From positions 930,001-994,000 of the forward strand of contig JAUZSN010000002.1 of the NCBI GenBank assembly GCA_030949405.1: DNA of 64,000 nt, in the 5' to 3' direction. The notes under the pieces were generated by a model. The model was not told the origin of the DNA. It saw only the letters and a program-made list of their open reading frames with translations, and ran no database searches. Below are positions 37,116-44,411 of this stretch, piece after piece; the first letter of the stretch is position 1; each line of letters begins with the position of its first letter. The position numbers and the translations under genes were made by a program. The stretch is from Methylococcales bacterium (GTDB lineage: Bacteria > Pseudomonadota > Gammaproteobacteria > Methylococcales > Methylomonadaceae).

Positions 37116-37460
37116 TTATTTGCTTAAAAATTTATAAACCGCATCAATCGCTTCATCTTCGCTTAAACCTGCTTTAATGACAGGTTTTATTCCCATGATA
37201 TTTTTCAATGCAGCAGGCATTCCGTTTTTGCCTTCTCTAAGAATTTTTGCAAATTTAGCTTTATCTAAATTACCCCCTTTAATGAGAGCCGCTAACTGAG
37301 GGTTTGATGCAATATCATGACACGTACCACAACCCCGACCGAACGCACGATCATAGATTTTTTTACCTATTTTTTCTAAATCAGCATCAGATGCTGCGAA
37401 TGAAGGTGAGCTTAAACCGATTAAAGTAATCATCGCTGCGGTAATTAATATTTTTTTCAT
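37116..37460 (-). CDS. Small monohaem c-type cytochrome
   Basis: A 114-residue exported cytochrome c with a signal peptide (MKKILITAAMITLIGLSSPSFA) and one haem site, CGTCH (C44-H48). A likely distal Met is in KNGMPAAL or NIMGIKP, as in class I cytochromes. It would carry electrons in the periplasm, for example between a dehydrogenase and a terminal oxidase. It is monocistronic with a strong terminator. The partner cannot be told from context. Confidence 0.85.
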   Translation of the reverse strand: MKKILITAAMITLIGLSSPSFAASDADLEKIGKKIYDRAFGRGCGTCHDIASNPQLAALIKGGNLDKAKFAKILREGKNGMPAALKNIMGIKPVIKAGLSEDEAIDAVYKFLSK

Positions 37461-40499: not shown

Positions 40500-41900
40500 A
40501 TGTTCGATGTTATTTATTTGCATATAGGACTTGATAAAACAGGTTCTAAAGCGATTCAATTTGCTTGCTGTGAAAATGCGGCCCATTTAAGTTCAGCTCG
40601 TATTTTTTATCCTGTTACGCCTGATACGGTTTGGCACGCTGAATTTGCTTCTTTTTTTCATCAGGATCCAAAAACTTATGCCTATAATCAAGCCATTGGT
40701 CGCAGTCAGAAGGCATTGGCGGTTATTCAATCCGAAGATAGAAATTATATTCGTAATTTAGAACAAAAAATTCAACAAACAAATGCTAAAACGATGGTGT
40801 TATCCTATGAAGGTTTTGCCTTTTTAGAGGGTGAAACTCTTGAAAAAATGCGCGATTACTTACAGGGTATTAGCAAGCAAGTTAAAATTATTCTTTATTG
40901 TCGTGAACCCGTGTCTTATGCGATCAGTGCGGTGAGTCAGCGAGCAATTAGTATGAGTGCGTTGTGGGGAAATGCGCCGATTCAGCTTTACAAGCCTATT
41001 TGTGAAAAATTTGTTTCTATTTTTGGAAAAGAAAACATGATTGTTCGTGATTTTTCCAAAAATAAATTAGTCGCTGGCGATGTTCGACAGGATTTTTTTG
41101 AACAAATTAAGTTTAATGATCCAAAGGCTTTAAATTTATCGACCGCTGGTGAAAATAGATCGCTCTGTTATGAAGCGATTAGCATTGCGCAAGCGTTACG
41201 CACACGTTGTCAACAAGAGCAGATTCCTGAAGCGGAATTTAGTTGGCGATATGCCTCTATTTTACAAAAAATTAAAGGGGTACCGTATACCCTAAATTCT
41301 GAACAATTAAGGGATGTTTATTCTAATGCAAATGAGCATAGTGATTATTTACGGGAAAATTTTTCAATTGCGTTTATAGCCGCTGAAAAAAATCAAGCTA
41401 CCGAGATAAGCCCTACATTTTCATCCGATTTTATGGATTCGATCGCTGAGGTTATTTGTAACCCGCGTGAATTTACCCCCCCGCTTGTACCCGAAGTTAA
41501 AACGGATGATGAATTAACCTGTCCTCCGTTTATCGGAAGGCTTGAAGGCGTGGCGATTCCTGACACCCTGATTGCGGGGAAGGAAACGTTATTAACCATT
41601 GAATTATTCAATGACAGTGATTTTAATTGGCTATCACAAGGACTTAACCCCAGTTATTTATCCTATCATTGGCAACAAAAATCAGGCGAGATGCTTATTT
41701 TTGAAGGGTTACGAAGCTCTTTTTCTACCTTAGGTCTACCTCATGGGCAATCATTAACCGCGACTATGCAGGTATCCGCCCCTTTGGAGGTAGGGTCTTA
41801 TTATTTAATTTTAACCTTGGTTAAAGAAAATATTTGTTGGTTTGAAGAAAATGGATTTGAACCCTTTAAAACAATGATAACCGTTAGCTCGAATCACTAA
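40500..41900 (+). CDS. Sulfotransferase-like protein with C-terminal beta domain
   Basis: A 466-residue protein. The N-terminal ~300 residues look like a PAPS-dependent sulfotransferase: HIGLDKTGSKAIQ is the 5'-phosphosulfate loop and VKIILYCREPVSYAISAV resembles the 3'-phosphate-binding region. The C-terminal ~130 residues form a beta domain (LSYHWQQKSGEMLIFEGLRSSF...VGSYYLILTLVKENICWF) like the glycan-recognition tail of some O-antigen exporters and glycosyltransferases. It may sulfate a surface polysaccharide. It is monocistronic, between a hairpin and the 12-haem cytochrome gene. Confidence 0.65.
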   Translation: MFDVIYLHIGLDKTGSKAIQFACCENAAHLSSARIFYPVTPDTVWHAEFASFFHQDPKTYAYNQAIGRSQKALAVIQSEDRNYIRNLEQKIQQTNAKTMVLSYEGFAFLEGETLEKMRDYLQGISKQVKIILYCREPVSYAISAVSQRAISMSALWGNAPIQLYKPICEKFVSIFGKENMIVRDFSKNKLVAGDVRQDFFEQIKFNDPKALNLSTAGENRSLCYEAISIAQALRTRCQQEQIPEAEFSWRYASILQKIKGVPYTLNSEQLRDVYSNANEHSDYLRENFSIAFIAAEKNQATEISPTFSSDFMDSIAEVICNPREFTPPLVPEVKTDDELTCPPFIGRLEGVAIPDTLIAGKETLLTIELFNDSDFNWLSQGLNPSYLSYHWQQKSGEMLIFEGLRSSFSTLGLPHGQSLTATMQVSAPLEVGSYYLILTLVKENICWFEENGFEPFKTMITVSSNH

Positions 41901-42053: not shown

Positions 42054-44411
42054 ATGAAAAAACTTCTTCTTTATTTAATCGTAGGGTTCATTTTGGTTTG
42101 CTTTAACCCCGTCTTAGCAGCCAATGATCTCCCCCTAAAAACACCGCCTAAAAATCAACAAGGGTGTCTTTCTTGTCATCAAGGCATTGAAGCCTTTACC
42201 GATGGTTTAATGATGACCACGATTAAAGGGATGGCAAAACCTTATGGAGACCCTGGAGGTTGTGTTATTTGTCATGGCGGAACACCTCAAGCCACCACTA
42301 AAAAACAAGCTCATCAAGGTTCACCTGCACGCTTGAAAGAATCCGCTGGCCCTCAACTATTTTATCCTGATCCAGGAAGTATATGGATTAATGAGTTTAC
42401 CTGTGGGCAGTGTCATCAAGGGGTTGCTAATCGCCTTAAAAAATCGTTAATGAACACCGAAGCAGGGAAATTACAGGGAAATTTTTGGAGTTGGGGGATT
42501 CAAAATGACATGAAAGTCGTATGGGGTAATTACAACCTTAAGGATGAAGATGGCTCTATTCCTGAAATTGGAACGGATGCTTATAAAGCGTATATGGTAG
42601 ACATGATCGCCGCCCATCCTGACCAATTTCCCAATGAACTTAAACAAGTCCCTGATGTGGATGTTAATGCTATTTCAAAACATCCGAATCGGGCGGGTAT
42701 TACCTATTCCAGACAAGAATGTCAGCGTTGTCATGTCGGCTCAAATGGACGTAAACGGCGGGGTGATTATCGCGGAGCAGGTTGCAGTGCGTGTCATGTT
42801 CCCTACAGTAATGAAGGCTTATATGAAGGTAATGATCCAACGATTAATAAAAAGGAAGCAGGACATCTTTTAGTTCATAAACTTCAGGCGACGCGAAAAT
42901 CTAAAGTTAAGGTCGGAAAGGTTAATTATTCAGGGATTCCTTCCGAAACCTGTAATACTTGTCATAACCGAGGTAAGCGGATTGGTGTGAGTTATCAAGG
43001 CTTAATGGAGTTTCCTTATGGTGGTCCTTATAATGATAAAGGTGAAAAACAACCGCCCTTGCATACTAAAAAATATTTATTCATCAAAGATGATTTACAT
43101 CATCAAATGGTCAGTCGTGAAGGAAATCCTCAAGGGGGATTATTATGTCAGGATTGTCATACTTCAATTGATATACACGGCGATGGTAACATTGCAGGAA
43201 CCACACTCGCGCAAGTTGAAATTGAGTGCTCCGATTGTCATGGCACCCCTGATAAATTCCCATGGGAATTACCGTTGGGTTATGGTGAGGAGTTTGATAA
43301 AAAACTAACCACTAAAGCACGGGGTTTGGCTCAAAAACTTCCTGATTATATGAAATGGGGAACGGTTTATGAACCTGAACAGGGATATTTATTAACCGCT
43401 CGTGGAAACCCATTCGGAAATGTCGTTAAAAAAGGTAAAGAGGTTATTATTCACTCCGCATCGGGGTTAGATTTTAAAATACCGATATTGAAACAAATCA
43501 GTAAGGATAAGAGCTGGAAGTCCGTAGACGGTCATGTTGCGATGGCACAAGTAAAAGGGCATTTAGAGAATATGGAATGTTATGCGTGTCATGCCGATTG
43601 GGTTCCTCAATGTTACGGCTGCCATATTACCGTTGATTATTCAAAAGGAAAAACCAGTGTTGATTGGATTAAAACCGCTAATTCATTGGGTGACGACGGT
43701 TTAGTTCAAGACCCCAATCTCAAAAAGAATCACAGTGAAGGGAAAGTTTCTGAAACAAGATCTTATTTACGCTGGGAAACGCCTATTTTAGGCATTAATG
43801 GGGAAGGGCGCGTGACCCCGATGATGCCAGGTTGTCAGGTGATTACCACGGTAATTGATAAAGACGGTAAAACCGTTGTTAAAAACAAAATATGGAATAC
43901 ACCGGAAGGGCCTGGGTTAGATATGGCCGCTGTTCAACCGCATACGACTGGACGAAAAGCCCGAAGCTGTGAAAGTTGTCATAATAATCCAAAAACGTTG
44001 GGTTATGGGATTGAGGGCGGACGTTTTACAAGTATGAGTCAGCCGCGTTACATTGAGTTAGAAACCGCAACAGGCCAAATAATTCCTGCGAATGCTCAAG
44101 TACAAATGCCCGCGATTCCTGATTTACAATGGGATTTATCACAAATTATTACTCGCGAAGGTAAACAGCTCGTTACCGTGGGTTCGCATTGGCCATTAAC
44201 GGGGCCTTTATCCCAAGCACAGCGCGACAAAATGGAACGGACTCAAGTCTGTATGGCTTGTCATAAAGAAATGAGTAATGCCGAGTTATGGCAAAAAGTG
44301 AGCTCAGAAAAAGTGCTGAATGACACAATGCACTCAGAAATGCTGAATAAACTATTGCGTCGAGCGGCTGAAAAAAATAAGCCTAAATCGTTGGTTCCTT
44401 CCCGTCAATAA
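42054..44411 (+). CDS. Dodecahaem c-type cytochrome
   Basis: A 785-residue exported cytochrome with a signal peptide (ending VLA-AND) and twelve CxxCH motifs: CLSCH (C38), CVICH, CGQCH, CQRCH, CSACH, CNTCH, CQDCH, CSDCH, CYACH, CYGCH, CESCH and CMACH (C733). Spacing varies from 10 to over 100 residues. No transmembrane anchor beyond the signal is seen. Similar large multihaem proteins act as oxidoreductases for nitrogen or sulfur compounds or as electron conduits. No porin or other partner gene is adjacent. It stands alone with a hairpin possible downstream. Substrate unknown. Confidence 0.9.
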   Translation: MKKLLLYLIVGFILVCFNPVLAANDLPLKTPPKNQQGCLSCHQGIEAFTDGLMMTTIKGMAKPYGDPGGCVICHGGTPQATTKKQAHQGSPARLKESAGPQLFYPDPGSIWINEFTCGQCHQGVANRLKKSLMNTEAGKLQGNFWSWGIQNDMKVVWGNYNLKDEDGSIPEIGTDAYKAYMVDMIAAHPDQFPNELKQVPDVDVNAISKHPNRAGITYSRQECQRCHVGSNGRKRRGDYRGAGCSACHVPYSNEGLYEGNDPTINKKEAGHLLVHKLQATRKSKVKVGKVNYSGIPSETCNTCHNRGKRIGVSYQGLMEFPYGGPYNDKGEKQPPLHTKKYLFIKDDLHHQMVSREGNPQGGLLCQDCHTSIDIHGDGNIAGTTLAQVEIECSDCHGTPDKFPWELPLGYGEEFDKKLTTKARGLAQKLPDYMKWGTVYEPEQGYLLTARGNPFGNVVKKGKEVIIHSASGLDFKIPILKQISKDKSWKSVDGHVAMAQVKGHLENMECYACHADWVPQCYGCHITVDYSKGKTSVDWIKTANSLGDDGLVQDPNLKKNHSEGKVSETRSYLRWETPILGINGEGRVTPMMPGCQVITTVIDKDGKTVVKNKIWNTPEGPGLDMAAVQPHTTGRKARSCESCHNNPKTLGYGIEGGRFTSMSQPRYIELETATGQIIPANAQVQMPAIPDLQWDLSQIITREGKQLVTVGSHWPLTGPLSQAQRDKMERTQVCMACHKEMSNAELWQKVSSEKVLNDTMHSEMLNKLLRRAAEKNKPKSLVPSRQ

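Follow-up and report, generated by a model that had tools for sequence, protein, structure and literature searches.

A single-gene twelve-haem cytochrome family related to Geobacter ExtM in a Methylococcales bacterium

The window, a stretch of 64,000 nucleotides from the genome of a Methylococcales bacterium, carries a gene for a c-type cytochrome with twelve haems. Judged by profile matches and alignment, the 12-haem family is an uncharacterised one, related to but separate from ExtM. The latter, likewise with 12 haems, is encoded in the extHIJKLMNOPQS cluster of Geobacter (excerpts of PMC5877670). Without oxygen, the acceptors open to a bacterium depend on its multihaem cytochromes. The explanation that we favor, tentatively and at somewhat less than an even chance, is that of an ExtM-related soluble periplasmic oxidoreductase, which would act at low oxygen and hold one substrate-binding haem. 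The family, encoded by a single, strongly conserved gene and shared by methanotrophs of seeps, sulfur oxidisers akin to Beggiatoa, and Chloroflexota, makes a tractable target. Knowing its function would shed light on Geobacter ExtM and its cable-bacteria homologue as well and, for methane cycling, would add a means by which aerobic methanotrophs deal with hypoxia.

The gene and its product

The features of the gene, all on the + strand and with the haem motifs numbered in sequential order, are located in the window as follows.

42054..44411, + strand: CDS of the 12-haem c-type cytochrome (785 aa, ATG start, TAA stop)
42054..42122, + strand: N-terminal Sec-type signal peptide, approximate (translation read by inspection)
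42165..42179, + strand: haem motif 1, CLSCH, residue 38
42261..42275, + strand: haem motif 2, CVICH, residue 70
42402..42416, + strand: haem motif 3, CGQCH, residue 117
42720..42734, + strand: haem motif 4, CQRCH, residue 223
42783..42797, + strand: haem motif 5, CSACH, residue 244
42951..42965, + strand: haem motif 6, CNTCH, residue 300
43146..43160, + strand: haem motif 7, CQDCH, residue 365
43227..43241, + strand: haem motif 8, CSDCH, residue 392
43578..43592, + strand: haem motif 9, CYACH, residue 509
43611..43625, + strand: haem motif 10, CYGCH, residue 520 (missing from the 10-haem relative L012)
43968..43982, + strand: haem motif 11, CESCH, residue 639
44250..44264, + strand: haem motif 12, CMACH, residue 733 (missing from L012)
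43533..43997, + strand: residues 494-648, haems 9-11 and a beta-rich segment common to the ExtN/ExtO models (profile matches; predicted beta strands)
43833..43835, + strand: Cys594, a non-haem Cys (27/28 family rows; Ser in LVIVD-fused relatives)

The twelve CxxCH motifs in 785 residues, as given in the preliminary description, are borne out: residue shuffles contain a mean of 0.031 (maximum 1). The mature product has a computed mass of ~84 kDa without haem and a pI of 8.6. Its N terminus, by inspection, reads as a Sec-type signal, MKKLLLYLIVGFILVCFNPVLA-AN, with no lipobox at the cleavage site; the earlier assignment to the periplasm is accepted on this reading, and the product would be soluble there. 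The gene is real and kept by strong purifying selection, because dN is low compared with dS toward the same-genus homologue L015 (0.095 and 1.32; dN/dS ~0.07) and a full-length alignment is obtained with 22 homologues.

The genes around the CDS are a TENA/PQQC-family gene, an ORF without Pfam match, and an ABC-F-like gene. Both flanking genes lie on the + strand, spaced 153 and 187 bp from the 12-haem gene, and are functionally unrelated to it. No functional partner is found among the window neighbors, in agreement with the preliminary description, which had also called the gene monocistronic. That term is fair as a probable reading, all three genes being on one strand; promoter and terminator scans around the gene do not rise above shuffled sequence. 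Immediately 5' of the cytochrome gene lies an ORF of 466 aa (40500-41900, + strand) that matches nothing in Pfam at E 1e-4. A small monohaem c-type cytochrome (114 aa; 37116-37460, - strand) is located close to sirohaem synthase and TusA genes.

Relationship to ExtM and other known systems

Pfam matches of the protein comprise general cytochrome domains only. The best NCBIfam match is ExtM (NF040943) with an E of 1e-73 and 248.6 bits, compared with a curated equivalog cut-off of 800 (226.7 bits when the whole genome is searched), and aligns residues 202-760 with profile positions 128-598 of 599. The same model is matched by all 22 aligned family members (best E 2e-76). ExtM (Geobacter GSU2935, 68.3 kDa) has 12 haems, as does the window protein; however, the latter is 785 aa long against a 599-position profile and is encoded by a single gene without an ext operon. 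The ext partners (porin, ExtKL, ExtN, Rieske/cytochrome b, and ExtS) are absent around the window gene, and no ext-type neighbor is common to the 29 relative loci, whose neighbors were clustered and partly annotated. A further difference lies in the FNR boxes and Crp/FNR neighbors of some family members. Because the score reaches 249 of 800 bits and the ext operon is missing, the protein is, on sequence grounds, a member of an ExtM-like superfamily and not ExtM itself, although the greater part of the protein is homologous to ExtM. A characterised enzyme family orthologous to it was looked for, and none was found.

A shorter match, to ExtN (NF040967, E 1e-15) and also to ExtO, covers residues 494-648 with haems 9-11; only ~150 residues of the window protein align with ExtN, which has 10 haems. 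In cable bacteria, the ExtM and ExtN homologues likewise stand apart from extKL, and the ExtN homologue is classed with potentially catalytic pentacoordinate-haem cytochromes (PMC11976967).

The kinship to ExtM opens the reading that the protein reduces selenite, tellurite, or a related oxyanion in the manner of the Geobacter ext system, chiefly for detoxification. It draws on the match of all 22 members to the ExtM model, on the decrease of selenite and tellurite reduction in Geobacter upon deletion of the porin gene extI (excerpts of PMC5877670), and on the reduction of selenite by methanotrophs (excerpts of PMC5554269 and PMC6821961). This reading is nonetheless improbable. The ext evidence in the excerpts all concerns the porin ExtI and not ExtM, the window gene has no ext operon, and Methylococcus capsulatus reduces selenite, yet full-length family members are nearly absent from Methylococcales.

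Comparison with octahaem reductases and MtrA/OmcA types, as proposed earlier, does not place the protein. The OmcA/MtrC decahaem family (TIGR03507) scores 13.6 bits against a cut-off of 209, and the MtrA/DmsE decahaem family (TIGR03508) gives no match at E 1. The octahaem tetrathionate reductase and hydroxylamine oxidoreductase models (TIGR04315 and other octahaem models) are absent among the Pfam and NCBIfam matches, with no PDB relative. Against PDB sequences, neither the protein nor the family profile draws more than chance matches, and no solved homologue turns up.

More distant kin occur in other Methylococcales (L003, L004, L005, L006, and L007), where a related cytochrome shows at most 10 CxxCH in the part seen and, in four of the five, a C-terminal LVIVD-type propeller, Pfam-confirmed in L006 and L007. 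The family profile matches these fusions with an E of 7e-35 over 540 columns, and they share His 275, 337, 349, 375, and 630 with the window protein; they differ from it in the extra propeller, in a Ser at the Cys594 site, and in an identity of 23-25%. The MCA0421-type surface cytochromes of M. capsulatus are also multihaem c-type proteins of Methylococcales, but show no detectable kinship to the window family; the counterpart of MCA0421 in the window's genome is likely a 936-aa protein of a separate cluster.

Distribution and regulation among relatives

Approximately 27 relatives, 42-86% identical, are scattered over Gamma- and Alphaproteobacteria, Chloroflexota, and Bacteroidota, many of the holder genomes being MAGs. 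Named holders include Thiotrichaceae, Albibeggiatoa, Chromatiales, Competibacteraceae, Filomicrobium, Rhodospirillaceae, Ardenticatenia, Anaerolineae, Bacteroidales, and Sulfurovum; Beggiatoa-like sulfur oxidisers are among the holders. A full-length copy exists in two of 251 Methylococcales genomes, both of the window's genus (the relative is recorded as Methylococcaceae bacterium), and an additional Methylococcales fragment in L034. Holders number 6 of 398 in a phylum-wide sample, 3 of 385 in the class of G317, and 1 of 350 in the phylum of the L026 genome, the one holder being that genome itself.

In the tree, the methanotroph pair adjoins Thiotrichaceae, its nearest relatives beyond Methylococcales (~68-71% identity), with moderate support (83/84), three Chloroflexota members form their own clade, and the Bacteroidales are likewise separate. 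A Chloroflexota member is still 59% identical to the window protein. The patchy holders and the tree grouping suggest that a single gene has spread horizontally; no homologue was matched in plasmids, phages, or viral contigs, and no mobile element was identified. The cytochrome of L019 (JAPYSB010000024.1), labeled Dehalococcoidia, clusters with Rhodospirillaceae (100/98), and this contig may be misbinned.

FNR boxes (TTGAT-N4-ATCAA; 9/10 or 10/10 positions matched) are located 123-178 bases before the start in L017, L019, L020, L022, and L024, that is, in 5 of 24 upstream regions compared with 3.4% of control windows (p ~0.001, binomial estimate). Among the 29 relative loci compared for conserved neighbors, no partner is universal; a Crp/FNR-type regulator gene lies within 500 bp upstream in five. 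A Rap1a-like small secreted protein is encoded immediately 3' in five of the 29 (in a sixth, L067, 2 kb upstream), a TPR-repeat protein, possibly an accessory protein of the cytochrome, immediately 3' in four of Chloroflexota and Proteobacteria (L010, L011, L028, and L035), and a CcmF-like gene nearby in three. None of these four gene types stands beside the window gene, and an FNR box upstream of it was looked for and is absent. Upstream motifs and gene context thus support low-oxygen regulation in some family members, the window gene not among them. The role under oxygen limitation first suggested is therefore plausible through the relatives, with neither sign present at the window gene itself.

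The position next to Thiotrichaceae is what points toward a donor-side enzyme, which would oxidise reduced sulfur or Fe(II) and pass the electrons to oxidases. Such a role is very unlikely, as the FNR boxes of some relatives indicate low-oxygen use, and the hosts are mixed and patchily distributed in all groups sampled.

Haem ligands, proposed function, and other cytochromes of the genome

Over 22 sequences, 137 columns are invariant, of which 107 lie outside the C/C/H of the motifs (749 such columns). Eleven non-motif His are conserved (87, 275, 337, 349, 350, 375, 467, 503, 630, 712, and 760), H350 being the least so with three exceptions. Twelve bis-His haems need twelve such residues; hence, this count, a sequence-only test for an open haem site, suggests that at least one of the 12 haems probably lacks a conserved His partner. 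It does not entail a free haem, because a conserved Met (53, 133, 497, or 507) or a nonconserved residue could serve as ligand. Cys594 is kept in 27 of 28 family rows; the sole exception, L012, has ten haems (10 and 12 are lost) and also lacks H337, H350, and H760. The window protein has ~64 residues per haem, compared with ~33 in MtrA-type wires (PMC5566968).

Two AlphaFold models reach mean pLDDTs of 58.6 and 67.7 and pTMs of 0.62 and 0.69. The better one predicts a beta-rich segment at ~444-626; pLDDT falls below 50 across much of the haems 5-7 region and 337-389, so the haem packing is unreadable from the model. The models give no credible Foldseek match and none at Z 2 in VIA-align.

The oxidoreductase is favored because conservation far exceeds the haem motifs at a low dN/dS, because eleven His stand against 12 haems and Cys594 is lost only together with haems 10 and 12, and because the protein has many residues per haem. 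Its low-oxygen part is favored by the FNR boxes and Crp/FNR genes of relatives, and its catalytic part by the match of residues 494-648 to ExtN, whose cable-bacteria homologue is potentially catalytic (PMC11976967). In the proposed mechanism, the periplasmic cytochrome pool would supply electrons to the haem chain, which would hand them over to the acceptor at one haem without a distal His ligand, probably near the beta-rich segment, haems 9-11, and Cys594. The acceptor would be a small soluble compound, for example of sulfur, selenium, or nitrogen. We infer a catalytic haem, this direction of electron flow, and low-oxygen use in the window's host.

Elsewhere in the genome, at least seven multihaem cytochromes are encoded together (G000:C2:167982-181589; L044:4982-18589, - strand; the search for multihaem genes covered part of the genome). 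The cluster comprises a 20-haem NHL fusion (1095 aa), 3-, 6-8-, 6-, 8-, and 7-haem proteins, the 936-aa cytochrome, a NapH-like Fe-S membrane protein, and a 456-aa protein, possibly a beta-barrel, that matches no family. With such a cluster at hand, the 12-haem protein could be a periplasmic relay for extracellular electron transfer toward the outer-membrane or surface cytochromes encoded there, the more so as the 936-aa protein is found in each of the two genomes of the genus that carry the 12-haem gene, a porin belongs to the ExtM cluster (excerpts of PMC5877670), and extracellular electron transfer, with anodic current partly via MCA0421, is shown in M. capsulatus (excerpts of PMC6281684) and, through a porin-cytochrome complex, proposed for Methylobacter (excerpts of PMC13322032). 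The relay is the main rival, somewhat less likely than the oxidoreductase. Homologues of the 936-aa protein are found in 45 of 251 Methylococcales genomes (paired ~0.5-0.8 kb apart in genus g30, which may be Methylococcus), compared with two for the 12-haem protein, and one genome of the window's genus, G196, has the 936-aa protein but not the 12-haem one. The 12-haem gene and the cluster are not genetically linked, and the genome has no MtrB/PioB porin above cut-off. A simple wire would be expected to have fewer residues per haem and weaker conservation, and there are family members in Chloroflexota too. Chloroflexota are generally held to be monoderm; since they form a clade of the family, the family would need no outer-membrane conduit.

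The oxidoreductase reading can be widened, as a rather unlikely extension, to a class of single-gene 12-haem periplasmic reductases, thinly and widely spread and moving horizontally, whose active site would be one haem, either five-coordinate or associated with Cys594, and which would serve low-oxygen respiration with an unrecognised acceptor. If true, the class would provide a respiratory route at low oxygen for methanotrophs, sulfur oxidisers, and Chloroflexota.

The premise that methanotrophs are not known for many such proteins was wrong and is outdated: 23 proteins of M. capsulatus Bath contain at least two haem motifs each (excerpts of PMC517821), to which the MCA0421-dependent current and the cluster described above are added. 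The 12-haem family itself is not described in the excerpts of PMC517821, PMC6281684, and PMC13322032. NapC/NirT is rejected as a universal donor, since the window's genome lacks it, as do 11 of the 23 holders that were searched. The sole ExtKL-like protein found in the genome, far from the 12-haem gene, is a 639-aa pentahaem protein (G000:C2:2589817-2591733; L046:7817-9733) with a weak match of 47.5 bits against a cut-off of 250. A pmoA/amoA-family gene is present, which fits a methanotroph. Three ORFs that share the N-terminal sequence MKIKEILPRIYDDRQLRALTG... (L045:5148-5651, L045:11523-12000, and L047:10390-10908) look like insertion sequence copies.
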